This document shows, piece after piece, positions 3,696 to 18,838 of a stretch of DNA of 20,751 nt. This DNA comes from Chloroflexota bacterium. Its GTDB lineage: Bacteria > Chloroflexota > Dormibacteria > Dormibacterales > Dormibacteraceae. A program made the position numbers and the translations under genes. The notes under the pieces are model-generated. The model was not told where the DNA came from, did not search any database, and saw only the letters and a list, made by a program, of their open reading frames with translations. How positions within the stretch are numbered: the first letter of the stretch is position 1; each line of letters starts with the position of its first letter. The stretch covers positions 1-20,751 of the forward strand of contig VBJR01000175.1 of the NCBI GenBank assembly GCA_005880175.1, written 5' to 3'.

Positions 3696-3818
3696 CGTTG
3701 ATCGTTTCTCTGTTGTCTGGCGGCGCCGCTGGAGTTCGGCTGACCGGCTAATCCGGGGGCTACAGGAAGCCCGCACCTTTACGGCCGGCCGCTCGTCTCG
3801 CGACTCGGGTTTTCCGTA

Positions 3819-3881
3819 CTAGAGGAATCTCCCGGCAGTCCAAACCGCAGCGGCTCTGGAGTTGTCCGGTGGTTCAGCCAT
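3819..3881 (-). CDS. 20-residue small ORF inside the candidate RNA
   Basis: ATG at 3881 is preceded by GGAGGT at 3891-3886, four bases away. The ORF reads MAEPPDNSRAAAVWTAGRFL and stops with TAG. A good ribosome binding site and a promoter-to-terminator unit around it support translation. The length suggests a leader peptide or a small protein. It shows no membrane segment and no run of a single regulatory amino acid. No homologue is recalled. Confidence 0.35.
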   Translation of the reverse strand: MAEPPDNSRAAAVWTAGRFL

Positions 3882-3903
3882 AGGCACCTCCGTGAACTCG
3901 ACA

Positions 3904-3917
3904 GTTAAACGCTTAAC
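3904..3917. promoter_or_regulatory. GTTAA-N4-TTAAC inverted repeat
   Basis: Perfect 5-bp arms (GTTAA 3904-3908, TTAAC 3913-3917) lie over the predicted start point of the minus-strand RNA and ~65 bp before the alpha/beta hydrolase start. It could be an operator for either unit. No matching second copy was seen in the window. Confidence 0.3.
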
Positions 3918-3981
3918 CCCATCTTTCGCTTCCTGGGCGCCGCTGTCAATACCCGGACCGTATCGCGAGTACCATCGCGGC

Positions 3982-4866
3982 ATGCCACGCGTCGAGGCCA
4001 ATGGCCTGGAGTTCGAGTACGAGACGTTCGGCGATCCGGCCGCGCCGCCGCTCCTCCTGATCATGGGGCTGGGGGCCCAGATGATCTCGTGGGACGACGA
4101 GTTCTGCGACCTGCTCGCCAGCCGTGGCTTCCACGTCGTCCGGTTCGACAACCGCGACGTCGGGCTGTCCACGAAGCTGGATCACCTGGGGACGCCCGAC
4201 CTCTCCGCGGTCGCCGCCGGGACGGAGCCGCCGCCGTACCGGCTCGAGGACCTTGCCGACGACGCGGCCGGCATCCTGGACGCGCTGGGGATCGGCGCGG
4301 CGCACGTCGTCGGCGCGTCGATGGGCGGCTTCGTGGCGCAGGCCCTGGCGATCGGGCACCCGGCGCGGGTGCTGAGCCTCACGTCGATCATGTCGGCGCC
4401 CGGGGGCATGCGCGACAACACGCCGGCCACGCCCGAGGCGATGGAGGCGCTGCTGAAGCCGCCGCCGGCCGACCGCGAGGGCCTGATCGAGCACGGGGTC
4501 TGGGTCAGCAGCCGCATCTCGGGGCCCGCGCACTTCGACCCGGAGGAGGCGCGGCGCAAGCGGACGCGGGCGATCGACCGGTCGGTGAGCACGGCCGGGA
4601 CGGCGCGCCAGCTCGCCGCCATCGCGGCCGCCCCGTCGCGGGTGGACCAGCTGCGGGCGCTGTCGGTGCCGGCGCTGGTCGTGCACGGCGAGGTGGACCC
4701 GCTGGTGCCCGTGGAGAACGGGCGCCGGACGGCGGATGCGATCCCCGGCGCCCGGCTGCTCGTGCTCCCGACGATGGGCCACGACATGCCCCGGCCCTGC
4801 TGGCCCGCGATCGTGGACGCGATCGCCGAGACGGCCCGGCCGGCGGACACGCCCGCGGTGGCGTAG
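3982..4866 (+). CDS. Alpha/beta-fold hydrolase
   Basis: This 294-residue intact alpha/beta hydrolase is probably cytoplasmic, as it has no signal peptide. The nucleophile elbow is GASMGG (S113), the acid is GEVDPLVP (D239) and the base is GHDMP (H267). The oxyanion region LLLIMGLGAQMISWDDEF lies at residues 24-41. The RFDNRDVGLSTK segment recalls the aclacinomycin methylesterase/epoxide-hydrolase-like branch, so an esterase is likely; the substrate is unknown. ATG 3982 is chosen because TACCAT (3970-3975) ends six bases before it, a leaderless arrangement, and homology begins there. An upstream in-frame TTG at 3862 would add residues unlike the family. It converges on glgP with 11 bp between stops. 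Confidence 0.8.
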   Translation: MPRVEANGLEFEYETFGDPAAPPLLLIMGLGAQMISWDDEFCDLLASRGFHVVRFDNRDVGLSTKLDHLGTPDLSAVAAGTEPPPYRLEDLADDAAGILDALGIGAAHVVGASMGGFVAQALAIGHPARVLSLTSIMSAPGGMRDNTPATPEAMEALLKPPPADREGLIEHGVWVSSRISGPAHFDPEEARRKRTRAIDRSVSTAGTARQLAAIAAAPSRVDQLRALSVPALVVHGEVDPLVPVENGRRTADAIPGARLLVLPTMGHDMPRPCWPAIVDAIAETARPADTPAVA

Positions 4867-4877
4867 GCGCGTCCCGG

Positions 4878-6844
4878 CTACCCGCCCCAGTCGGGCAGCA
4901 GCCGCAGCTGCTCGACGCGGCGGGCGGCGGGCGCGTAGCACTCGGACAGGTAGTCGAGCACCATGCGCCGGGCCGAGAACCCGGTGACGATGTGGCGGAC
5001 CGAGCCGCGCATCATCGCGAGCCAGCGGGTCGGGAGGCCGCGCTCGTCGCGGTCGTAGAACGCGGGCACGACCTCGCGCTCGAGCAGGCGGTGCAGCGCC
5101 TCGGCCTCGGCCGCGTCGTCGGTCGTCGGGCTGTCCATCGTGGCGCCCGAGGGGATCGCCCAGCCCAGGCCGGGGCGGTGGCCCTCGTCCCACCAGCCGT
5201 CGAGCACGCTGACGTTGAGGACGCCGTTGGCGCCGGCCTTCATGCCCGACGTGCCGCTCGCCTCCAGGAATCGCCGGGGGTTGTTCAGCCACACGTCCGC
5301 GCCCTGCACGAGCAGGCGCGCGACCTCGATGTCGTAGTCCTCCATGAACGCGATGTGGGACTCCCGGCGCGCGGTCTGGACGATCTCGCGCAGGATGCGC
5401 TTGCCCTCCATGTCGGCCGGATGGGCCTTGCCCGCGAACACGATCTGGACGGGGCGGTGCGCGTCGTGCAGCAGCCGGAGCAGGCGGGCGTGGTCGGACA
5501 GCACCAGGTTGGCCCGCTTGTACGGCGCGAAGCGGCGGCTGAAGCCGATGGTGAACGCGTCGGGGTCCAGCTGGTCGCTGGCGTGGCGGGCGTGGACGGC
5601 CTCGGTCCAGCGGGCGTCGTCGGGGCCGATGTCCCACCACTCGGGGGCGACGTGGCGCTCGAGCAGGCCGGCGATCTCCGGCGCCACCCAGCTCGGCATG
5701 TGGACGCCGTTGGTCACGGAGTAGATGGGCACCTGGGCCTCCGGCAGGCCGGGCCAGGCGTCCTTCCACAGGCGGCGCGAGACGGCGCCGTGGAGGCGGC
5801 TGACGCCGACGGCGCGGTCGGCCATGCGGAGGCCGACGTACGTGGTGCAGAGCAGCTCGCGGACGTCGCCCGGCGTGCGCCGGCCCAGGTCCATGAAGCG
5901 CTCGAAGCTGAGGCCGACGTCGGTCAGGTACGGGCCGAGCAGCTCGCGGACCAGCGCGGGCTCGAAGTAATCGCTGCCGGCGGCGACGGGGGTGTGGGTG
6001 GTGAAGACGAAGCCGGCGCGGGCGATCAGCCGCGCCTCCTCGAGGGTGAGCTGGCGGCGCTGCCGGAGCTCCCGGATGCGCTCGACGGCGAGCAGGAAGC
6101 CGTGGCCCTCGTTCATGTGGAAGACGGTCGCGTCCACGCCCATGGCGCGGAGGGCGCGCATGCCGCCGATGCCGAGCACGATCTCCTGGGGCAGGCGCCG
6201 GGCCGGCTCGGGCACGTACAGGCGGTCGGCGATGGCGCGGCGGCCGGGCGGTCCCCGAGCGGGCAGGTCACCTCGAGCGGGCCGTCCGGGGTCTCGACCC
6301 GCTGCAGGGGCAGCTCCTGGAACACGTTCTCGGGGTAGACCTCGTACTGGCCGCCCTGGTCGTCGATGCGCTGGCGGCCGAAGCCCTGGCGGTAGAGGAG
6401 GCCGACGCCGACCAGCGGCAGGGCGAGGTCGCTGGCGGCCTTGAGGTGGTCGCCGGCCAGGACGCCGAGGCCGCCCGAGTAGATGGGGAGGCCCTCCGTG
6501 AGGCCGAACTCGAGGGAGAAGTAGGCGATGGAGAGGGGGGCCCCGGCCTCGATGGGCGCGGCGGGCCGGGCGCGGTACTGGCGGAGGGCGGCGCGGGCGT
6601 CGTCCAGCGCGGCGCGGACCTCGGGCCGAAGGAGGGCAGCGCGGACCCCCTCGGGGCCCAGCCGAGCGAGGAGCAGGATCGGGTTGTGGCCGGAGCGCTG
6701 CCAGAGCTCGGGATCGAGCTCGGCGAACAGGGCGGCGATGCGGGGCTCCCAGGTCCAGGTCAGGTCGAGGGCGATGTCCTTCAGCTCGTCCAGCACGACG
6801 TGGTCCAAAGGCCCCGAGCTCGAGTGGTCAGCACGAATGAGCAA
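4878..6844 (-). pseudogene. glgP: Alpha-glucan phosphorylase (GT35), internally deleted and frameshifted
   Basis: It releases glucose-1-phosphate from glycogen with PLP as cofactor. The N-terminal part (6844 to ~6240) has the DUF3417-type start (LKDIALDLTWTWEPRIAALFAELDPELW) and SIAYFSLEFGLTEGLPIYSGGLGVLAGD. The C-terminal part (6233-4878, another frame) has IGGMRALRAMG, HMNEGHG, YSVTNGVH, GFSRRFAPYKR, FAGKAHPAD and EASGTSGMKAGANGV with the PLP lysine. The frames change at 6234-6248, where the family normally has about 30 more residues between VTCPLGDRP and IADRLY. A deletion of 3n+1 or 3n+2 bases explains this better than one missing base. Start choice is weak: TTG 6844, TTG 6808 and GTG 6796 are all possible and none has a clear ribosome site. 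It pairs functionally with GlgA. Confidence 0.85.
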
Positions 6845-11251: not shown

Positions 11252-12080
11252 TTGCTGACCGGTTTCCTTCCGCTACGCCGGCTCCGGCGCGCGGTCGCGG
11301 TTGCCAGCTCCGTCACCGCGATCGCCGTCTACGGCATTGTCTCGGCCAACCCGACCTCCGCGGACACCAACCCGTTCGAGCGCGGGCCCGCGCCGACCCT
11401 GGCCAGCATCCAGGCCACGACCGGGCCGTTCGCCATCTCCACCACGACCGTCGCCAGCAGTGCCACCAGCGGCAAGTTCGGCGGCGGCACGATCTACTTC
11501 CCGACCGACACCAGCCAGGGCACGTTCGGGGCAGGGCTTCGTGATCTTCACGATCGACACCAACTCCACCGGCGACAACCCCACCATGCGGGCCACAGAG
11601 CTGCTCGCGGCGCTGGACTACCTGACCCAGACCAGCTCGGCGCGCGCCGAGGTGGACGCCAGCCGGCTCGGCGTCTCCGGCCACTCGATGGGCGGTGGCG
11701 GCACGCTGGAGGCCTCGGTGAGCCGTCCCAGCCTCAAGGCCGCCGTACCGATGGCGCCCTGGGACGCCAACACGAAGAACTTCTCCACCGACGCCGTGCC
11801 AACGCTGATCGTGGCCGCGCAGAACGACAACATCGCCCCGGTCAACCAGCATGCGATGGTGTTCTACAACAGCATCCCGACGACCAGGCAGAAGATGTAC
11901 CTGGAGCTGGCCGGGGCGAGCCACACCGCCACCAACCGGGCCAACACCACGCAGGCCCAGTTCGAGATCGCCTGGCTCAAGCGGTTCATCGACAACGACA
12001 CTCGTTACACCCAGTTCCTCTGTCCGACGCCGAGCACGAGCAGCACGATCTCGACGATCAACAACACCTGCCCGTTCTGA
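11252..12080 (+). pseudogene. Secreted cutinase / PET-hydrolase-like polyester esterase, internally deleted
   Basis: TTG 11252 follows CAGGAGG. A signal peptide (basic LRRLRRAVAV, hydrophobic core, cut after SANPTSA) is followed by NPFERGPAP and GGGTIYFPTDTSQGTFG, as in Thermobifida cutinases. Downstream in another frame come GFVIFTIDTN, the nucleophile GHSMGGGG, APWD, the acid in AQNDNIAP, the base in GASHTATN, and the ending FIDNDTRYTQFLCP with NTCPF (the C-terminal disulphide pair). At 11528-11534 about 23-24 residues are absent. These normally hold SPG-aromatic-TG, the oxyanion and aromatic-clamp loop, and the WLG helix. The frame shifts by one at the same place. The catalytic triad survives in sequence, but as read here the gene cannot make an active enzyme. 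Confidence 0.85.
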
Positions 12081-12120
12081 CGGTCCAGGGCGGACTGTCC
12101 ACTTCGGAGGATGCGGTAAC

Positions 12121-12153
12121 CGACGGCGGCCCGCCGGGGGGCGGCCGCCGTCG
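12121..12153. terminator. Bidirectional hairpin between convergent genes
   Basis: CGACGGCGGCC (12121-12131) and GGCCGCCGTCG (12143-12153) make a perfect 11-bp stem with an 11-base loop. It lies between the stops of the cutinase (12080) and the serine hydrolase (12165). There is no U-tract, as is common in high-GC actinobacteria. Confidence 0.5.
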
Positions 12154-12164
12154 GCGGTCGCCCG

Positions 12165-13397
12165 TCAGTCGTCGATCGCCTGGTAAGCGGCTGTCCAGAA
12201 GTCGAACAGGATCGGCAGCCCGGGCGGCGCCGGCGCCCGCTGGATCATGAGGATCGTGGTCATGTCCTCGGCCGGGTCGTTGTACCAGCCGGTGCCGTAG
12301 ATGCCGGGCCATCCGTAGCTGCCGACCGAGGCCGGCGGAGGGCACGAGACCGACCAGGGTCCCAGGTGCGCGCGCTGGGTGCGGACCGACATCCCGAAGC
12401 CCCAGCCGATGTCGTCGAAGTACCCTGGTTCGAACCCGGACACAGCCTTCTGCGCCGGCGTCAGGTGGTCGCTCGTCATCAACGTGACCGACGGCCGCGA
12501 GAGCACCCGCTCGCCGCGGTGGGTGCCGCCGGCCAGCAGGGTCGAGGCGAAGGCGAGGTAATCGCTGGCGGTCGAGACGAGCCCGCCGCCGCCGTCTTCG
12601 AACGCCGGCGGCCGGCTCCAGTACCCGTCGGGGCCGTCCTCGACGACGACCTCGCCGGTGGCGCCGTCGAGCTGGTACGCGGTCGCCAGCCGGCTGATGT
12701 TCTCGCCGCCGACGCTGAAGGCGGTGTCCTTCATCCCGAGCGGCTCGCAGATCCGCTCGCGCAGGGCGTCCCCGAAGGACATGCCCGTGGCCCGGGCGAC
12801 GAGCACGCCGGTCACGCTGGCGGCGATGTGGTACATCCAGCGCTCACCCGGCTGGTGGACGAGCGGAAGCCTGCCGAGCCGCCGTATCCACTCATCCGGC
12901 GGCGGCGCGGGCTCCTCGCCCAGCAGCGCATTCAGCGCGTCGGCGATCGGGACCGTTCCCGGTTCGGCCACCACGATGCCGGTGCCGAGGCGGTACGTGA
13001 GCAGATCCCGCAGCGTGATCGGGCGTTTGGCGGGGACCGTGTCTTCCAGCGGCCCGTTCGGATCGGCGAGCACCGTCATGTCCGCCAGTTCCGGCAGGAA
13101 CTCGTCGACCGGGTCGTCGAGGCGCAGCGTGCAGTCCTCGACGAGCGTCATCGCGCAGGCCGCGACGATCGGCTTCGTCATCGACCCGATGCGGCAGATC
13201 GTGTCGGCCGCCATCGGCGTGCTGGAGCCTTCGCCCTCGAAGGCCAGGTTGCCCACTGCCTCGACATGAACCTCGCCGTGGCGGGCGATGACAGCGACCG
13301 CGCCGGGGACATAGCCGGCATCGAGGTGACGGGAGAGCACGTCTCGCACGCGGGCCAGCCGTTTCGGCGAGAGGCCGCTGGCGGTCACCTGGGTCAT
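12165..13397 (-). CDS. Serine hydrolase of the class-C beta-lactamase family
   Basis: This 410-residue protein has the nucleophile motif SMTK (S72, K75), the catalytic tyrosine in ERWMYHIAAS (Y189), and LRERICEPLGMKDTAF. These are typical of the beta-lactamase/esterase EstB/D-aminopeptidase superfamily (PF00144). The second motif is YHI rather than the YxN of true AmpC enzymes, which favours an esterase or peptidase over antibiotic resistance. There is no signal peptide, so it is probably cytoplasmic. ATG 13397 is preceded by GAGGGGG, which overlaps the ArsR-DinB stop 12 bp upstream. The two are therefore co-transcribed, and this enzyme should follow the same ArsR control. Confidence 0.85.
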   Translation of the reverse strand: MTQVTASGLSPKRLARVRDVLSRHLDAGYVPGAVAVIARHGEVHVEAVGNLAFEGEGSSTPMAADTICRIGSMTKPIVAACAMTLVEDCTLRLDDPVDEFLPELADMTVLADPNGPLEDTVPAKRPITLRDLLTYRLGTGIVVAEPGTVPIADALNALLGEEPAPPPDEWIRRLGRLPLVHQPGERWMYHIAASVTGVLVARATGMSFGDALRERICEPLGMKDTAFSVGGENISRLATAYQLDGATGEVVVEDGPDGYWSRPPAFEDGGGGLVSTASDYLAFASTLLAGGTHRGERVLSRPSVTLMTSDHLTPAQKAVSGFEPGYFDDIGWGFGMSVRTQRAHLGPWSVSCPPPASVGSYGWPGIYGTGWYNDPAEDMTTILMIQRAPAPPGLPILFDFWTAAYQAIDD

Positions 13398-13409
13398 GAA
13401 CGATCCCCC

Positions 13410-14330
13410 TCACACGCGCTGACGAAGTGCTTCCTCGACCGAGGTGATGTGCTCCGCCGCGTGCTCCGCTCTCCCGGCGAACAAGCCGCCAGCGGCCTGG
13501 TCGCCGACGACGGTGGGCAGCCGAGCGGCCAGCTGATCATCGGTGAACTGGTGCAAGAGGTCCAATGTGTCCTCCCGCGTCGCCAGGTAATCCGCTGCCA
13601 GTGTCTCCAGGCTGTCGTCGTGGTGCTCGTCCACATCGGCTTGATTGACACGGGCGACGGCCAGCACCAGCCGCTCCATCTCCTCCTGGGTCAGCGCGCT
13701 CAGATCGCCCAGGACGGCCGGCATCGGCATTCCCTCCGGGTATTGAAGACGCAGGAGAGCGTCTCGGCCCTCGCCGGCGAGCGCGCGGCCCAGCAGGTGC
13801 TGGATGCGGCGTTCGCTCTTCGCCAGGTGAGCCAGATGATCCCTGGCGCGCCAGGGAGCCGCTCCGGGCACATCACTCGCCGTTGCCGGGCGCTCCAGGT
13901 CTTCAGGGCTCAGGCCCTGAAAAAACGTCATGACCTGCGTCTGCGATGCCGCGAGTGTGTCCAGAATCTCCGCGCGAGTTGGCACGAGCACCCTCCCGGT
14001 GTTCTGTTGTTGCAGCTCGTTGAGGTAGTCACCCATCCGATCCAGTCGGTCATTCCACGCCCGCTCGTACTTGGCCAGCCAGTCGTGGAACGGCCGCAGG
14101 CGCGCGGGCTCCAGGCGGTACAGCCGATGGCGCCCCTCCGACCGGCAGCTGACGAGTCCCACCTCACTGAGCACCCGCAGGTGCTTTGAAACCTGAGGCT
14201 GGGACATCGAGAGGTCGCTCACGATCGCTCCGACCGCCTTCTCGCCCGCGATCAGCGTGTCCAGGATGTCGCGACGGCGTGCCTCGGCAATTGCGTTGAA
14301 GACATCCGAGGTCGTGGAGGAGCGAGCCAC
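13410..14330 (-). CDS. ArsR-family regulator fused to a DinB-like domain
   Basis: Residues ~1-105 are a winged-helix ArsR domain (DVFNAIAEARRRDILDTL, LSMSQPQVSKHLRVLSEVGLVSCR, RHRLYRLEPARLRPFHDW) of the subtype usually found beside SRPBCC/AHSA1 genes. It has no CxC metal site. Residues ~115-306 form a helical DinB/mycothiol-dependent-enzyme-like domain with candidate metal-binding histidines in RDHLAHLAKSERR and AEHAAEHITSVEEAL. Total length is 306, against about 100-120 for ordinary ArsR. GTG 14330 is chosen: TTGACA (14364-14359), a 16-base spacer and TATGAT (14342-14337) end six bases before it, so the message is probably leaderless. A 22-bp palindromic operator lies between -35 and -10, implying self-repression. 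Confidence 0.8.
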   Translation of the reverse strand: MARSSTTSDVFNAIAEARRRDILDTLIAGEKAVGAIVSDLSMSQPQVSKHLRVLSEVGLVSCRSEGRHRLYRLEPARLRPFHDWLAKYERAWNDRLDRMGDYLNELQQQNTGRVLVPTRAEILDTLAASQTQVMTFFQGLSPEDLERPATASDVPGAAPWRARDHLAHLAKSERRIQHLLGRALAGEGRDALLRLQYPEGMPMPAVLGDLSALTQEEMERLVLAVARVNQADVDEHHDDSLETLAADYLATREDTLDLLHQFTDDQLAARLPTVVGDQAAGGLFAGRAEHAAEHITSVEEALRQRV

Positions 14331-14336
14331 GGGTCC

Positions 14337-14364
14337 ATCATATACCGATATCAGCATATGTCAA
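14337..14364 (-). promoter_or_regulatory. Promoter of the ArsR-DinB gene with operator copy 1
   Basis: TTGACA at 14364-14359, a 16-base spacer, and TATGAT at 14342-14337. The operator 14339-14360 (CATATACC, central GATATC, CAGCATATG overlap) fills the spacer. It differs from a perfect palindrome at two positions per arm. 18 consecutive bases (14335-14352) are identical to 17759-17776. Confidence 0.75.
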
Positions 14365-14380
14365 CCCTCGGGAACGAGGG
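14365..14380. terminator. Short hairpin after the Gfo/Idh gene
   Basis: CCCTCG (14365-14370), GGAA loop, CGAGGG (14375-14380), placed just 3' of the minus-strand Gfo/Idh stop and before the ArsR -35. It is a plausible weak terminator separating the two units; there is no U-tract. Confidence 0.35.
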
Positions 14381-14397
14381 GCCGAGCGCCCGACCTG

Positions 14398-15477
14398 TCA
14401 GATGGGGTCCGGCCGCGCGCACGACGTGGAGACGGTCACGTGCCGCCCCAGCTCCGCCGATTCCACGAGACCGCTCATCACGTCGAGCACGTGGAGACCC
14501 AGCTCCCCGCTCGCGCGGTGGGGTCGCCCGTCGGCGACGGCCGCCATCATCTCTGCCAGGCCGAGCCCCCGGGTCTGGGGCCGGCCGGTCCGGTGGAGTG
14601 GGACCGGCTCCCACTCTCCGCGCGACGCGCGCCAGACCTGGACCGGGCCGGCGAAGGTGTTGGGATCGGGGCCGTCGAGCGAGCCCTCGGTGCCGAACAC
14701 CTGGAAGGGGGGCAGGCGGGCCGCCCAGACGTCGAAGGTCATCAGCAGGTTCACGATCGCGCCCGAGGCGAACTCCAGGGTCCCCGCGACGTGGGTTGGG
14801 ACCTCGACGGGGAATCGGGTGCCCGCCCGGGGTCCCGATCCGATGGTGCGTTCGGCCAGCGATGCGCGTGCGGCAGCGCTCACGCGGCGCACCGGGCCGA
14901 GCAGCGAGACCAGCGCGGTGAGGTGGTACGGGCCCATGTCCATCACCGGCCCGCCTCCCGCCTGGTAGTAGAACTCGGGCGAGGGATGCCACGACTCGTG
15001 CCCGTGACCGGCGACGACGACCGCACCGCCGATGGGCTCCCCGATGGCGCCCTCGTCGATCAGGCGACGGCAGGTCTGGATGCCGTCGCCCAGGAAGGTG
15101 TCGGGCGCCACGCCGAGCCGCACGCCGGCCTCCGCCGCGGCGGCGACCAGGCGCTCGCCGTCCTCGCGCCGCACCGCGAGTGGCTTTTCGACGTATACGT
15201 GCCTGTCGGCCGCGATCGCCGCCTCGGTCACCTCGGCGTGGGCGGCCGGCACCGTGAGGTTGAGAACGACGTCCACGTCCGCGCGGCACGGCAGCTCGTC
15301 GACGGCCGACACGACGGCGACGCCGTGCTCCTCCGCCGCGGCCCGGGCGCGCGCCGGGTCGAGGTCGGCGACCGCGACCACCTCGAGGCCGAAGTCCGCC
15401 GCGTGGGCCAGGTAGGTGCGGCTGATGTGGCCGGTGCCGATCACGCCGACGCGGGCCAGGGGTGACCGGCTAGGCAT
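14398..15477 (-). CDS. Gfo/Idh/MocA-family NAD(P)-dependent oxidoreductase
   Basis: This 359-residue protein has an N-terminal Rossmann fold: GVIGTGHISRTYL (residues 11-23) with an acidic end to the second strand (ADLD), and the family motif VEKPLA (E97-K98-P99). The C-terminal alpha/beta domain carries GGPVMDMGPYHL, which holds the likely catalytic Asp/His. Such enzymes oxidise or reduce sugars and cyclitols. The substrate is unknown, but the ThuA partner points to sugar metabolism. ATG 15477 overlaps the ThuA stop by 8 bp, so the pair is one operon with coupled translation. Length is normal and no defect is seen. Confidence 0.9.
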   Translation of the reverse strand: MPSRSPLARVGVIGTGHISRTYLAHAADFGLEVVAVADLDPARARAAAEEHGVAVVSAVDELPCRADVDVVLNLTVPAAHAEVTEAAIAADRHVYVEKPLAVRREDGERLVAAAAEAGVRLGVAPDTFLGDGIQTCRRLIDEGAIGEPIGGAVVVAGHGHESWHPSPEFYYQAGGGPVMDMGPYHLTALVSLLGPVRRVSAAARASLAERTIGSGPRAGTRFPVEVPTHVAGTLEFASGAIVNLLMTFDVWAARLPPFQVFGTEGSLDGPDPNTFAGPVQVWRASRGEWEPVPLHRTGRPQTRGLGLAEMMAAVADGRPHRASGELGLHVLDVMSGLVESAELGRHVTVSTSCARPDPI

Positions 15478-16138
15478 CGCGTCCGGCGTTCGCCGCCCAC
15501 AGCAGTCCGCGGCGGGTGACCGTCTCGACCTGCGGTACGTCGAAGTCCCGGTCCTGGTGGCCGATCGCGCTCACGAAAACGCGGCCCTCTCCCCACGTGC
15601 GCGTCCAGATCACGGGCATGACCGTGCGCTCGACCCAGGGCGCCTCCCGGCTCCTACCGAAGGTGGTCGTGGCGAACACGCGGTTGAGCGGATCCATGTG
15701 CAGGTAGTACTGCTCGGTTCGGATGCGGAAGTCGTCGAGCCCGGCGATCAGCGGATGGTCCCGCTCCTCGCGCACGAACTGGACGGAGTAGTCGATGATG
15801 CCGTCGGGGTGGGCGACCCACTGGGCGCCGGTCATGAACTGGTACCGCGTGCTCGCGCGAAAGGAGTCGATGATCCCTCCGTGCCATCCGGCGAACCCGG
15901 CCCCTCGCAGCACCGCGTCCTGCAGGCCCTCGAACTGCTCGTCGCCGATGGCGCCCATCGTCCAGGTCTGCACGATGAGATCGACTCTGCCCATGAGGTC
16001 CCTGTCGAGGTAGGCGTCCAGCGTGTCCGACACCACGACGTCGAAGCCTTGCTGGACGAGAAACGCCCTGAAGCGACCGCTCGTCTTCTCGGGCTCGTGG
16101 CCCTCCCAGCCGCCCCAGACGATCAGCGCGGCCGTCAT
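15470..16138 (-). CDS. ThuA-domain protein (trehalose-utilisation type)
   Basis: This 222-residue protein starts ALIVWGGWEGHEP, the ThuA first strand and loop. It continues with VDLIVQTWTMG, GAGFAGWHGGIIDSF, FVREERDHPLIAGLDDF and an end-domain TWGEGRVFVSAIGHQ, all typical of ThuA/GATase1-like folds. In rhizobia ThuAB act on trehalose by forming 3-keto sugars, and ThuB is a Gfo/Idh dehydrogenase. The next gene here is of that family, so this may be a ThuA-ThuB-like pair, though the sugar is not determined. ATG 16138 is chosen because the family begins there; the ribosome site is weak. Confidence 0.85.
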   Translation of the reverse strand: MTAALIVWGGWEGHEPEKTSGRFRAFLVQQGFDVVVSDTLDAYLDRDLMGRVDLIVQTWTMGAIGDEQFEGLQDAVLRGAGFAGWHGGIIDSFRASTRYQFMTGAQWVAHPDGIIDYSVQFVREERDHPLIAGLDDFRIRTEQYYLHMDPLNRVFATTTFGRSREAPWVERTVMPVIWTRTWGEGRVFVSAIGHQDRDFDVPQVETVTRRGLLWAANAGRDA

Positions 16139-16480
16139 CGCCGGTAGTCCGTGAAGCTCATGGAAGGAACGTAACCGCCAGGCGGCACCTGGGTGGGGCG
16201 GGCGGCCCGGGGCCACCGGGGCGCGATGGTCTCAGGTCTGCGCGTCCCCGACCGGCCGGTCGGGGCTGGTGAGGGTCATCACGCGCAGAAGCCCGCGGCC
16301 GTCAGCCGCGCGGCACGCCGGCCAGAGGGCCGGCGGCCTGCCCGAACCACCAGGACCGGTCACGTCCCGGCGCACGACTTCCAGGCCGTGCGCCGAAGCC
16401 GTGCCGGAGCGGCGCCGGCGCCAGAAAGCGAACGGCTCCGGCGGAGACCGCCGGAGCCGCTTCGTCCAGGGGAGTGATGA
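16139..16480. other. Gap with a 20-bp palindrome and a terminator
   Basis: No gene is supported in these ~340 bases. They hold the perfect palindrome at 16246-16265 (CCCCGACCGG and its complement), 108 bp upstream of the ThuA start, and the terminator at 16433-16459 belonging to the minus-strand membrane protein. The remainder shows no consistent coding frame. Confidence 0.5.
16433..16459 (-). terminator. Terminator of the membrane protein gene
   Basis: CGGCTCCGGCGG (16433-16444), AGA loop, CCGCCGGAGCCG (16448-16459): a perfect 12-bp stem 22 bp beyond the minus-strand stop. It is followed on that strand by TTCGCTTTCT, a modest U-rich tail. Confidence 0.7.
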
Positions 16481-17053
16481 TCACGCGGGGACGGGCTGGG
16501 GCCGGGTGGCCCGGGCCGTGCGGGGGGCCACCAGGACCTCGAACGCCAGGGTGGCGAGGACCACGATCGCGGCCACGGTCAGGCCGAGGGCGGCGTAGAG
16601 CAGGTACAGGGCCACCTGCGACCAGCCCCAGGCGTACAGGAGCAGACCGCGCAGGGTCTCGCCCTTGAACAGGGTGTTGGCCTGGTTCTGGAGGGCGGTG
16701 TTCTTGGGGTCGGCCTGGGAGGCGGCGCTGACCTGCGAGTAGGTCTGGCCGTTGGCGACCTTCTCGAGGTGGATGCCGATGAAGTCGTTGGCGTAGACGC
16801 GAGCCTTGTCGCCGTTGTCGACCTGCTGACCGGCGTAGTTGCGGATCTCGGCGGGGAACTCGGCCGGGTCGAGGGCGCCGCCGGCCCTGATCTCGCTGGC
16901 GGGCGGGAAGGAGATCTTCTGGGAGGCGAGCTGGTCGTGGACCATGCCGTTGATGAAGCCGTTGCCCCAGAAGGCGAAGCCGGCGCAGAAGCCGAGCACG
17001 AGCACGACGATGACCTGGAGGCTGACGATCCTCCAGCGAAGTCCCTTGGTCAC
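16481..17053 (-). CDS. Conserved three-helix membrane protein of unknown function
   Basis: This 190-residue protein has one N-terminal membrane segment (about 8-30), an extracytoplasmic domain of ~100 residues, and two C-terminal segments (about 135-172) with a basic tail. The middle contains FPAEIRNYAGQQVDNGDKARVYANDFIGIHLEKVANG and LFKGETLRGLLL. I recall these as recurring in uncharacterised actinobacterial proteins, so it is a real family without a known role. GTG 17053 follows a strong AAGGAGG. A GGGACC-TC-GGTCCC repeat lies ~112 bp upstream, possibly linking it to the stress regulon to the right. Confidence 0.75.
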   Translation of the reverse strand: MTKGLRWRIVSLQVIVVLVLGFCAGFAFWGNGFINGMVHDQLASQKISFPPASEIRAGGALDPAEFPAEIRNYAGQQVDNGDKARVYANDFIGIHLEKVANGQTYSQVSAASQADPKNTALQNQANTLFKGETLRGLLLYAWGWSQVALYLLYAALGLTVAAIVVLATLAFEVLVAPRTARATRPQPVPA

Positions 17054-17164
17054 TTGACGTCCTCCTTTCGTTCTGGTGGAGCCGCCCCTGAGCCGGCTCC
17101 CCTCGAACTCCAGTCAAGCGGCCATACCCGCCCCGGGCGACGGCCTCCCGGCCCGGGACCAGGA

Positions 17165-17178
17165 GGGACCTCGGTCCC
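17165..17178. promoter_or_regulatory. GGGACC-TC-GGTCCC inverted repeat
   Basis: Perfect 6-bp arms in the region upstream of the minus-strand membrane protein gene, with another GGGACC at 17155-17160. The form matches the GGGAC-N4-GTCCC core of DosR/DevR-type boxes. A binding role is inferred. Confidence 0.45.
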
Positions 17179-17224
17179 CCCGTCCTCGGGTCGTGGTGCC
17201 CTGTCCACGCGCCCTGACCCTCGC

Positions 17225-17710
17225 TCACTTCGTATCGAGCAGTGTCCGCAGGAGGTCTTCCATCTTGTCGAAGCTGTCTTCCTGGCCGTCGGACCTGGTC
17301 ATGTGGTCACGGCCGGCCTTGTCGCGGAACGCGAGCTTCACCGTCATCCTGGTCACTCCGTGCGCTTCGTGCAGATCCACGGACTCGACGGCATCCGCGT
17401 CCGGCCACCCTTCGAACAGCCACGTCGCGACGGTCCGGGTCGGCGGCTCGACCTCCAGGTAGGTTCCCCGAAACGAGCACTCGGTTCCGTCGTCGGTCAC
17501 GAAGACGATGTGGTAGTCACCGCCGACGCGCAGGTCGATGGAGCATTTCGTCACCTCGCACGTGAATGGAGCGAACCATTTGCTCACGTGCTCCGGCTTC
17601 GTCAGCACGTCGAAGACGAGCGCGATCGGAGCTTCGAACTCCCGAGTGGTGACGATCTCGAGCTCATTCGGGAATTCGATGACTGCCGATCCATGCCGAT
17701 TGGTCGTCAC
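17225..17710 (-). CDS. SRPBCC/AHSA1-family protein
   Basis: This 161-residue protein begins its START-like fold with LEIVTTREFEAPIALVFDVLTKPEHVSKWFAP, followed by DLRVGGDYHIVFVTDDGTE, FRGTYLEVEPPTRTVATW and a long last helix (KMEDLLRTLLDTK). These are typical of the AHSA1 branch that is usually adjacent to an ArsR regulator. It probably binds a hydrophobic ligand; no reaction is established. GTG 17710 follows GGGAGAGG. Its promoter region holds a perfect copy of the ArsR-DinB operator (17763-17784), so it is very likely regulated by that gene 2.9 kb away. Confidence 0.85.
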   Translation of the reverse strand: MTTNRHGSAVIEFPNELEIVTTREFEAPIALVFDVLTKPEHVSKWFAPFTCEVTKCSIDLRVGGDYHIVFVTDDGTECSFRGTYLEVEPPTRTVATWLFEGWPDADAVESVDLHEAHGVTRMTVKLAFRDKAGRDHMTRSDGQEDSFDKMEDLLRTLLDTK

Positions 17711-17757
17711 TGCGCCTCTCCCTGTTGTTGCGGTTCTCTGGGGTGGTCATCCACAGA

Positions 17758-17789
17758 CCCATCATATACCGATATCGGTATATGATGGG
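17758..17789. promoter_or_regulatory. 32-bp perfect palindrome: ArsR-type operator copy 2
   Basis: Starting CCCATCATATACC with central GATATC and ending in the exact complement, all 32 bases are symmetric. TATGAT -10 hexamers occur within it on both strands (minus 17766-17761). The core 17763-17784 matches operator copy 1. It lies 48 bp before the SRPBCC start and probably overlaps its promoter. Confidence 0.8.
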
Positions 17790-17826
17790 TCCGGGCCGTC
17801 AGCCGGGCGGGAGGAGGCCGAGAGGC

Positions 17827-17857
17827 GGCCGGGCTCGCCGGCGGGACGAGCCCGGCC
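17827..17857 (-). terminator. Terminator of the universal stress protein gene
   Basis: GGCCGGGCTCG (17827-17837) and CGAGCCCGGCC (17847-17857) form a perfect 11-bp stem with a 9-base loop, six bases past the minus-strand stop at 17864. Confidence 0.6.
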
Positions 17858-17863
17858 AGGCGG

Positions 17864-18277
17864 TCAGCGGGCGACCACCACCGGACAGTGGCTGAGCTGG
17901 ATCACCTTGTGGGCCACACTGCCCAGCAGCAGTCCCGCCAGGTCCGAGCGGCCCCGGCAGCCCATGACGATCGCGTCGGCGCCCTCGGCCTCCGCCTCGG
18001 CGAGGATGGCCCGCGCCGCCTGACCGATGACGTGCGGCTCCACGACGCCGCGTGCCCGCACGCCCTCAGCCGTCAGCGACGCGGTGATCCCGTCCACCAG
18101 CTCCTGGGCCTGGCCGTCAGCCTCCAGGGGGTACGCCCCGCCCCTCGCGAGCTGGAACTCGCGGACGTGGAAGACGAGCACCTCGCCGTGCGACTTCCGG
18201 GCCAGGTCCGCCGCCACCGGCACGGCCCTGCCGCCGTGATCGGAGCCGTCCACCGCCAGCAGCAACTTCTGAAACAC
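17864..18277 (-). CDS. Universal stress protein (UspA family)
   Basis: This 137-residue single Usp domain has the first strand KLLLAVDGSDHGGRAV and the ATP-binding signature G-x2-G-x9-G(S) complete as G106, G109 and G119-S120 (MGCRGRSDLAGLLLGSVAHKV), ending CPVVVA. It is probably an ATP-binding cytoplasmic dimer of the kind induced in dormancy or low oxygen. GTG 18277 is chosen: AGGAGG lies eight bases upstream and the fold begins at once. It is divergent from the CBS gene with 162 bp between them, so the two may share regulation. Confidence 0.9.
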   Translation of the reverse strand: MFQKLLLAVDGSDHGGRAVPVAADLARKSHGEVLVFHVREFQLARGGAYPLEADGQAQELVDGITASLTAEGVRARGVVEPHVIGQAARAILAEAEAEGADAIVMGCRGRSDLAGLLLGSVAHKVIQLSHCPVVVAR

Positions 18278-18390
18278 GAGCCCAACCTCCTGCGCCCGGG
18301 AGCCGGCGCCTCGCTGGCCCACCACGGGGCCCGATCTCAACCTAGGCGGCGTCCGGGGCCCGGCCGAGGGCCGGACGGCCGTGCGTGGCG

Positions 18391-18442
18391 GGGACCCCCG
18401 GCAGTGGCCCGGGCCGCCTCGCGGACCGACGCTGGCAGCATG
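18391..18442 (+). promoter_or_regulatory. GGGACC box 49 bp before a CBS-gene ATG
   Basis: GGGACC-CCC-GGC at 18391-18402 begins exactly 49 bases before ATG 18440. The same spacing holds at 19880/19929 and 20622/20671. No ribosome binding site lies before the ATG. This fits an activator box over the -35 of a leaderless message. Confidence 0.55.
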
Positions 18443-18838
18443 CGAGTGAGCGAACTGATGCAGCCGGAGGTCTGGCAGACCGACCCCGAGGAGAGCCTGG
18501 CCGACGCCGCGGCCCGCATGCGGGACCACGGTGTCGGCTCGCTCGCCGTCCTCGACGGTGAGAACCTGGTCGGCATCCTGACCGAGCGCGACCTGCTGTG
18601 GGCGCTGGCCGACGGCGCCGCCGCCCACGTGACCAGGGTCGGCACGTACATGTCCGCGCCGCCCATCGTGGTCTCGCCCGAGACCGACGTGGTCGAGGCG
18701 GGGCGGCTGATGGTGAAGCACGACGTGCGACACCTGCCCGTGCTGGCCGTGGGCCAGCTCCGGGGCATGGTCTCCATGCGCGACCTGCTGGTCGCCGAGG
18801 AGTGGGCCCGCGAGCTCCAGCCGGCCCGGCCGCGGTGA
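18440..18838 (+). CDS. CBS-domain pair protein
   Basis: At 132 residues, it has two CBS motifs (about 5-58 and 70-120) and nothing else. It begins MRVSELMQPEVWQTDPEESLADAAARM, has VGILTERDLL in the first repeat, and YMSAPPIVVSPETDVVEAGRLM with RGMVSMRDLL in the second. CBS pairs bind adenosine nucleotides (ATP, AMP, SAM), so a sensor or storage role in the stress cluster is likely. ATG 18440 begins the domain directly. It has no ribosome site, and a GGGACC box sits 49 bases upstream. A second such gene begins at 20671. Confidence 0.85.
   Translation: MRVSELMQPEVWQTDPEESLADAAARMRDHGVGSLAVLDGENLVGILTERDLLWALADGAAAHVTRVGTYMSAPPIVVSPETDVVEAGRLMVKHDVRHLPVLAVGQLRGMVSMRDLLVAEEWARELQPARPR

Follow-up and report, generated by a model that had tools for sequence, protein, structure and literature searches.

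The contig VBJR01000175.1 of a Chloroflexota bacterium was analysed as one stretch of 20,751 nt, hereafter the window. It carries on its minus strand two palindromic operators of nearly identical sequence. The first operator (O1) precedes a gene for an ArsR-type repressor fused to a DinB-fold protein (ArsR-DinB), behind which a serine hydrolase gene is located, and the second (O2) precedes an AHSA1/SRPBCC gene with a leader of 15 codons. A preliminary description had assigned gene identities, of which the following were confirmed by domain search: the ArsR helix-turn-helix (HTH) together with DinB_2, the beta-lactamase-fold hydrolase, AHSA1/SRPBCC, ThuA, and Gfo/Idh/MocA. The coordinates are compiled in Table 1.

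A shared operator and its ArsR-SRPBCC family

The two sites had been placed at 14339-14360 and 17763-17784 as 22-bp elements sharing 18 consecutive bases. Both the placement and the identity were reproduced, with the identical run spanning 14335-14352 and 17759-17776. The second site had also been described as a perfect palindrome of 32 bp; its symmetry is indeed perfect, but the palindrome is 36 bp long, with two 18-nt arms that are 100% complementary. O2 scores 18/18 and O1 17/18 against the family consensus, while the next-best position in the window reaches 10/18. The 14-mer CATATACCGATATC with at most three mismatches matches the window four times versus 0.14 expected, and 0/100 shuffles reached four matches. 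Among the 74 distinct sites scoring at least 15/18 in the window and the loci examined, O2 possesses the longest perfect arm (18 nt), followed by arms of 14 nt (L004, a locus without ArsR) and 13 nt. The left arm of O2 mirrors its right arm (GACCCATCAT / ATGATGGGTC), whereas the sites of relatives are mostly bounded on the left by TTGACA or a similar sequence and followed by the ArsR start. This perfect symmetry could have arisen through template switching in replication. The exact 20-bp site was absent from the viral contigs searched.

As proposed in the preliminary description, O1 lies inside the ArsR-DinB promoter, between a perfect -35 box (TTGACA) and the -10 box (TATGAT). This promoter matches 11 of the 12 promoter positions and is the sole promoter-like site found in the region 12000-18500. 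The GTG start of ArsR-DinB is located 8 nt past O1 and only 6 nt past the -10 box, so the mRNA is probably leaderless.

The operator recurs with a characteristic gene arrangement. A genome-collection scan with ATATRCYGATATCRGYATAT yielded 24 loci, in 10 of which the site stands directly before an ArsR gene whose product is 49-76% identical to the ArsR half of the window. An AHSA1/SRPBCC gene follows ArsR in eight of these 10; L008 is cut by the contig end, and L017, which is the same gene as that of L034, gave no SRPBCC match. The remaining 14 loci gave no ArsR match; nine of them have a G+C content below 50%, and 13 are not actinobacterial by their titles. These ArsR-less sites are probably chance occurrences or the property of other regulators. 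The 20-bp palindrome occurs in records from Paenibacillus, Fusibacter, and Sulfurovum (L016:6529-6548, L011:2089-2108, and L002:4703-4722, respectively), with no ArsR match in the 8-kb locus. On the opposite strand of L016, the palindrome is abutted by TTGACA, and in L011, it is followed by one more palindrome of similar sequence. The sequence may there serve some other regulator.

The looser pattern ATATNCCNATATNGGNATAT, applied to 299 genomes belonging to the same class as L009, detected 13 sites in 13 genomes, one apiece, and a coordinate comparison placed all 13 at 9-13 nt upstream of the start of an ArsR gene of this family. When a site was called at 13 or more of the 18 consensus positions, 55 of 57 distinct ArsR genes carried one 7-12 nt before the start codon. 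In the control, 71 of 5000 stretches attained this score; they were drawn from the same loci and may include true sites. The two siteless genes are those of L049 and of L047, the latter with a probably misplaced start, as the same gene in L144 has a 14/18 site. In L151, an ArsR (41%) is present with a best site of just 10/18. TTGA occupies the -35 position in 50 of the 55 relatives having a site, and the full TTGACA is found at the upstream edge of the site in 35 of them. The expectation that ArsR and SRPBCC genes are usually adjacent was borne out in both directions: SRPBCC stands directly behind ArsR in 54/57 cases, and 27 of 30 SRPBCC loci have ArsR as the immediately preceding gene. As for the other three, L153 offers 58 upstream bases, L155 none, and L157 361 bases without ArsR or site.

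Since the site-ArsR-SRPBCC arrangement recurs with such regularity (55/57 and 54/57), the palindrome is, by sequence comparison, the predicted operator of a widespread operator-ArsR-AHSA1/SRPBCC operon. Its position just before the ArsR start indicates that it should be autoregulatory. For the large ArsR-AHSA1 family, whose regulation is little studied in the papers examined, this provides an operator defined by sequence (about TTGACATATnCCnATATnGGnATATnAT ahead of the start codon), from which targets become predictable and testable in many genomes. Word searches of the literature found no paper on this operator.

The ArsR remnant and the ArsR-DinB fusion

The leader of the SRPBCC gene (17754-17707, minus strand) reads GTG GAT GAC CAC CCC AGA GAA CCG CAA CAA CAG GGA GAG GCG CAG TGA. 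Its start codon is located 8 nt past the 22-bp core of O2, the same spacing as for ArsR-DinB, and its stop overlaps the SRPBCC start (GTGA). Among the site-bearing ArsRs, the ten closest (L047 set aside) share the order operator, gap of 8-11 nt (8 nt in 7/10), ArsR, and SRPBCC. The ArsR gene comprises 113 codons in all 11 relatives, and a GTGA-like overlap of 4 nt with SRPBCC is found in eight of the 11. Immediately before the stop codon, ArsR ends in MDDYLKELQQQGEPQ in L040 and in VDDYLQELQRQGEQQ in L026, and the window leader reads VDDHPREPQQQGEAQ. An ungapped comparison of 46 leader bases with the ArsR 3' ends gave 26-37 identities for all 11 relatives, with L040 and L043 the best, and none of the 3,727-6,605 control windows per locus equalled the leader match in any of the 11 loci. 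Over the full 48 bases, 38 are identical to L040. The direct repeat D3 of the window represents the same similarity between remnant and ArsR inside the window.

In the window, 52 nt separate the operator from the SRPBCC start. Of the ten closest relatives, seven have 346 nt between the two, and the other three have 340, 349, and 314 nt. The difference between 346 and 52 is 294 nt, corresponding to 98 codons, and thus the deletion is in frame. The sequence thus gives good support to reading the SRPBCC leader as what is left, in frame, of the ArsR gene usually found at this place. A plausible route would be a deletion from the GTGG at the ArsR start to a GTGG at codon 99, as present in those relatives that have GTG GAC there. 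In the comparison with the 30 SRPBCC loci, an operator without ArsR before SRPBCC was seen in the window only. In the gene order of four close ArsR-SRPBCC loci, the pair alone is common to the window, apart from one alpha/beta-hydrolase match at 27%. The preliminary description had regarded the two genes as separated yet tied by the operator. The shared operator stands; a mere relocation does not, as the SRPBCC gene lost its own ArsR, of which 15 codons remain.

The intact repressor of the window is ArsR-DinB. Its winged helix matches HTH_5 with 42 bits (cut-off 22) and HTH_metalloreg with 80.1 bits (cut-off 55), and the second half matches DinB_2 with 37.6 bits (cut-off 24.8). Twenty-one free proteins (191-198 aa, mostly 191 aa) share 75-88% identity with the DinB half, and the products of five free genes in the phylum of L020 (Chloroflexi bacterium) share 48-77%. 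The free DinB genes of L067 and L068 carry AGGAGGGTAATC before the ATG, with close variants in others, and the corresponding bases of the window are translated (...CAACAACAGAACACCGGGAGGGTGCTCGTGCCAACT). The linker NTGRVL thus contains the former ribosome site, and V116 corresponds to the former start codon. A like linker, with Met kept at the internal DinB start, is found in P0001, a protein of 306 aa with 87% identity; no further full-length relative occurs among the best 120 of 1001 matches listed. P0001 is also the only one of 69 matches to the ArsR region with a listed DinB domain, while 13 carry HTH and AHSA1. These sequences support, with one independent relative, the view that read-through joined ArsR to a DinB-fold protein that otherwise occurs free. 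A free DinB protein may possibly be made as well, from the internal start codon.

No ArsR-DinB fusion in an open frame occurred among the listed matches from 299, 400, and 396 genomes (E <= 1e-30, 1e-25, and 1e-32, respectively; the best 5-7 candidates per genome were scored, and the genome sets overlap). One candidate in G060, matching residues 1-182, was rejected as a fusion since it runs through a stop codon; it corresponds to the ArsR-SRPBCC-hydrolase locus L050. In 12 loci around DinB matches, no ArsR with at least 40% identity was found beside the free DinB gene, and literature word searches found no paper on an ArsR-DinB fusion. The predicted model of the DinB half has a mean pLDDT of 94.3. 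A search of solved structures with its sequence detected no relative, and four of 112 fold matches reached E <= 0.001. His50, His53, His175, and His179 are invariant in 27 aligned DinB sequences and would fit an H + HxxxH arrangement. YfiT-type proteins have a metal-binding histidine triad. A parallel to the ArsR-DinB link is offered by L015, which has an intact operator-ArsR-SRPBCC operon: close to the end of its SRPBCC match starts an open reading frame (ORF; L015:3950-4525) for a mycothiol maleylpyruvate isomerase N-terminal domain (MDMPI_N, DinB superfamily).

The serine hydrolase gene is probably on the ArsR-DinB transcript (Table 1). Locus L050 shows the same order of ArsR, SRPBCC, and hydrolase, the last of these 54.5% identical to that of the window. 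Such linkage is not general: L050 is the one case seen, and none was found in 12 hydrolase loci (about 1.5 kb on each side). At L068:256-1032, a weak match (29%) to the window hydrolase lies beside the free DinB gene on the opposite strand. Elsewhere in the window, a PET hydrolase-like protein (PF12740, 241 bits) is encoded at 11301-12080, convergent with the serine hydrolase gene, and a 190-aa ORF at 16484-17053, between SRPBCC and ThuA, had been called a membrane protein and has no Pfam or NCBIfam match. The ORFs behind the ArsR-SRPBCC pairs of relatives include DoxX-like proteins (9/57), RibD_C (4/57), and one member of the DinB superfamily (L015). These 57 ORFs were kept from 76 in 67 loci; the 19 left out were mostly short or overlapping, eight loci fell out with them, four loci had too little downstream sequence, and seven had no ORF.

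Table 1. Positions of the operators, genes, and gene segments in the window
Feature	Coordinates	Strand	Remarks
Operator O1 of the ArsR-DinB gene	14339..14360	minus	CATATACCGATATCAGCATATG on the plus strand; consensus match, family position before the ArsR start
Promoter around O1	14337..14364	minus	TTGACA 14364-14359, 16-nt spacer, TATGAT 14342-14337
ArsR-DinB fusion gene	13410..14330	minus	GTG start, 306 aa; stop 13410-13412; full-length relative P0001
ArsR half, residues 1-107	14010..14330	minus	HTH_5/HTH_20; standalone ArsRs (commonly 112-123 aa) reach 92% identity
Fusion linker, residues 108-115	13986..14009	minus	former DinB ribosome site GGGAGGG at 13997-13991
DinB-fold half, residues 116-306	13413..13985	minus	former GTG start 13985-13983; free relatives begin at the same residue
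Beta-lactamase-fold serine hydrolase	12165..13397	minus	12 nt past the ArsR-DinB stop; probably same transcript
Operator O2 before SRPBCC	17756..17791	minus	36-bp perfect palindrome; -10-like TATGAT at 17766-17761; without -35 box
ArsR remnant	17707..17754	minus	15 codons and stop; similarity to ArsR 3' ends, frame, spacing
AHSA1/SRPBCC gene	17225..17710	minus	GTG start, 161 aa; 84-89% identical to the SRPBCC directly behind ArsR in L040 and L041

Proposed regulation and alternative explanations

In the proposed mechanism, the operator, lying between the -35 and -10 boxes, would be occupied by the repressor, which would thereby silence the probably leaderless transcript that encodes it. The SRPBCC operon would have lost its repressor gene through the in-frame deletion of 98 codons, by which the operator, the ArsR start position, 15 codons, the stop, and the overlapping SRPBCC start would have been left in place. 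A second repressor copy of the same kind, with the same operator and 3.4 kb away, would have been fused by read-through to the DinB-fold protein. ArsR-DinB would then control the operon that it forms with the serine hydrolase as well as, acting in trans, the SRPBCC gene left without a repressor. We regard it as the most likely reading, at a probability of roughly 0.65, that the operon lost its local ArsR and that the fused paralog controls both its own operon and SRPBCC. The evidence covers the operator family, the remnant, and the fusion, all at the level of sequence, and from it we infer the binding and repression by ArsR-DinB, the translation of the 15-codon leader with its coupling to SRPBCC, and any ligand role of the DinB half. 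A more detailed version, in which the leader ORF still starts at the repressor start on a leaderless mRNA and hands ribosomes to SRPBCC via GTGA, while the paralog that acquired DinB as a sensor or enzyme domain through read-through, maybe made together with free DinB, represses in trans, is tentative and falls somewhat short of an even chance.

If trans control by ArsR-DinB is correct, the window captures in the act the transition of an autoregulator from a single operon to a regulon of several operons. It would exemplify how a repressor-target pair turns into a small regulon, through the redundancy of paralogs with the same operator and the in-frame loss of one repressor, with the operator and the start spacing kept.

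Several observations weigh against this reading. Of the 299 genomes, the 13 with an exact site have it once each, in the promoter of the ArsR gene itself, so trans targets are not typical. None of the other genomes searched showed this split. In the weakest of the remnant comparisons (L044), 26/46 bases are identical, and the best control reaches 24. Relative to L040, the remnant has six amino-acid-changing and three silent codon differences, two of the changes being to proline, and the leader peptide therefore looks unconserved. A -35 box was looked for at O2 and none was found, which renders the strength of the SRPBCC promoter uncertain; the site may belong to a weak promoter or be a mere roadblock to read-through. 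The candidates for SRPBCC transcription are either a weak promoter with a -10 box only or read-through from the upstream universal stress gene with the repressor as a roadblock. Between that gene and O2, at 17792-17863, lies a GC-rich inverted repeat (GGCCGGGCTCG...CGAGCCCGGCC, minus strand) with no T run, perhaps a terminator.

Three other explanations were weighed. The partner of O2 could be another ArsR of this subfamily, encoded at an unlinked position in the source genome, with ArsR-DinB serving its own operon only. Two subfamily members do occur together in some relatives (G003, and G269 and G301 with two matches apiece), each of the 13 genomes has its exact site before its own ArsR, and the search for ArsRs in the source genome covered the 20,751-nt window. 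Yet O1 and O2 are nearly identical and the window ArsR is only 3.4 kb away, and the sequence offers no ground to prefer an unseen copy; we consider this explanation unlikely, with about one chance in five. The same odds are assigned to the view that the site before SRPBCC is a decaying relic, in which case the gene would be weakly expressed or unregulated and the palindrome would have no present role. The absent -35 box and the amino-acid changes gathered in the remnant, with two to proline, would agree with decay, but an operator matching the consensus at 18/18 with the longest perfect arms of the 74 sites is unlike a decaying one, and the SRPBCC gene is intact, at 84-89% identity to its closest relatives.

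The deletion itself might be unreal if assembly or amplification had produced a chimera at the palindrome junction. A perfect palindrome does sit at the junction, and the split recurs in no second genome among those searched. Against this, the deletion is in frame, and the stop, the GTGA overlap, and the distance between operator and start codon are all preserved. A fresh chimera also need not differ, as the remnant does, from the ArsR 3' end of every one of the 11 relatives and from the window ArsR-DinB. We thus judge this explanation very improbable, far more so than an unlinked partner or a decaying relic.

Comparison with known systems

The pairing of ArsR with AHSA1/SRPBCC is an already-known predicted module. 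In the available part of PMC2701414, the two-gene ArsR-COG3832 (AHSA1/SRPBCC) operon is predicted to be a toxin-antitoxin-like or antibiotic-resistance module, and the ArsR subfamily paired with COG3832 is described as being without conserved metal-binding motifs. No toxicity was seen for a COG3832-ArsR pair of Stenotrophomonas, according to the accessible text of PMC7650669, and for Frankia, an ArsR occurring with AHSA1 is noted with a link that is not elucidated in the portion available (PMC4531530). The window contains the same two families, and the adjacent order is their usual form (54/57 relatives). In contrast to this module, the window has an intact ArsR with an operator before its start and no SRPBCC directly behind it: the pair is split, the ArsR adjacent to SRPBCC is cut to 15 codons, and the intact one is fused to DinB and located 3.4 kb away. 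We saw no second case of such a remnant and split.

The ArsR subfamily has also been joined to its usual partner, as in the ArsR-AHSA1 fusions (13 of the 69 matches, e.g. P0246, P0248, P0259, and P0261). The partner there is the AHSA1/SRPBCC domain, whereas in the window it is a DinB-fold protein. The DinB half resembles ClbS in fold (6anr; E 2.7e-4, TM 0.62/0.69), with weaker matches to YfiT and mycothiol S-transferase (E 5e-3 and 1.3e-2, respectively). Proteins of the DinB/YfiT fold (ClbS, DfsB, YfiT, and mycothiol S-transferase) are 7-20% identical to the DinB half among the 50 matches listed, a level at which no activity is transferable. A role in detoxification is a weak guess by analogy, prompted by the ClbS-like fold for DinB and, for AHSA1, by CalC as mentioned in the available part of PMC2701414.

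The closest parallel to the proposed control is found in Mycobacterium tuberculosis, where Rv2034-Rv2035 is a COG3832-ArsR pair with Rv2034 as the ArsR (PMC3968373, available part). Rv2034 is reported to be a dimeric autorepressor that binds a palindrome near its own start codon and acts at other promoters too (PMC3338718, available part). By analogy, autorepression combined with further targets makes trans control in the window plausible. Rv2034-Rv2035-Rv2036 resembles the window family in having an ArsR, a palindrome near the start, and an operon with a polyketide_cyc2/SRPBCC gene. The Rv2034 palindrome (CCGTAAGT-N4-ACTTACGG) differs from the window operator, and the accessible portion of PMC3338718 describes the operon as intact and describes no fusion, whereas the window combines a split operon with a repressor fusion.

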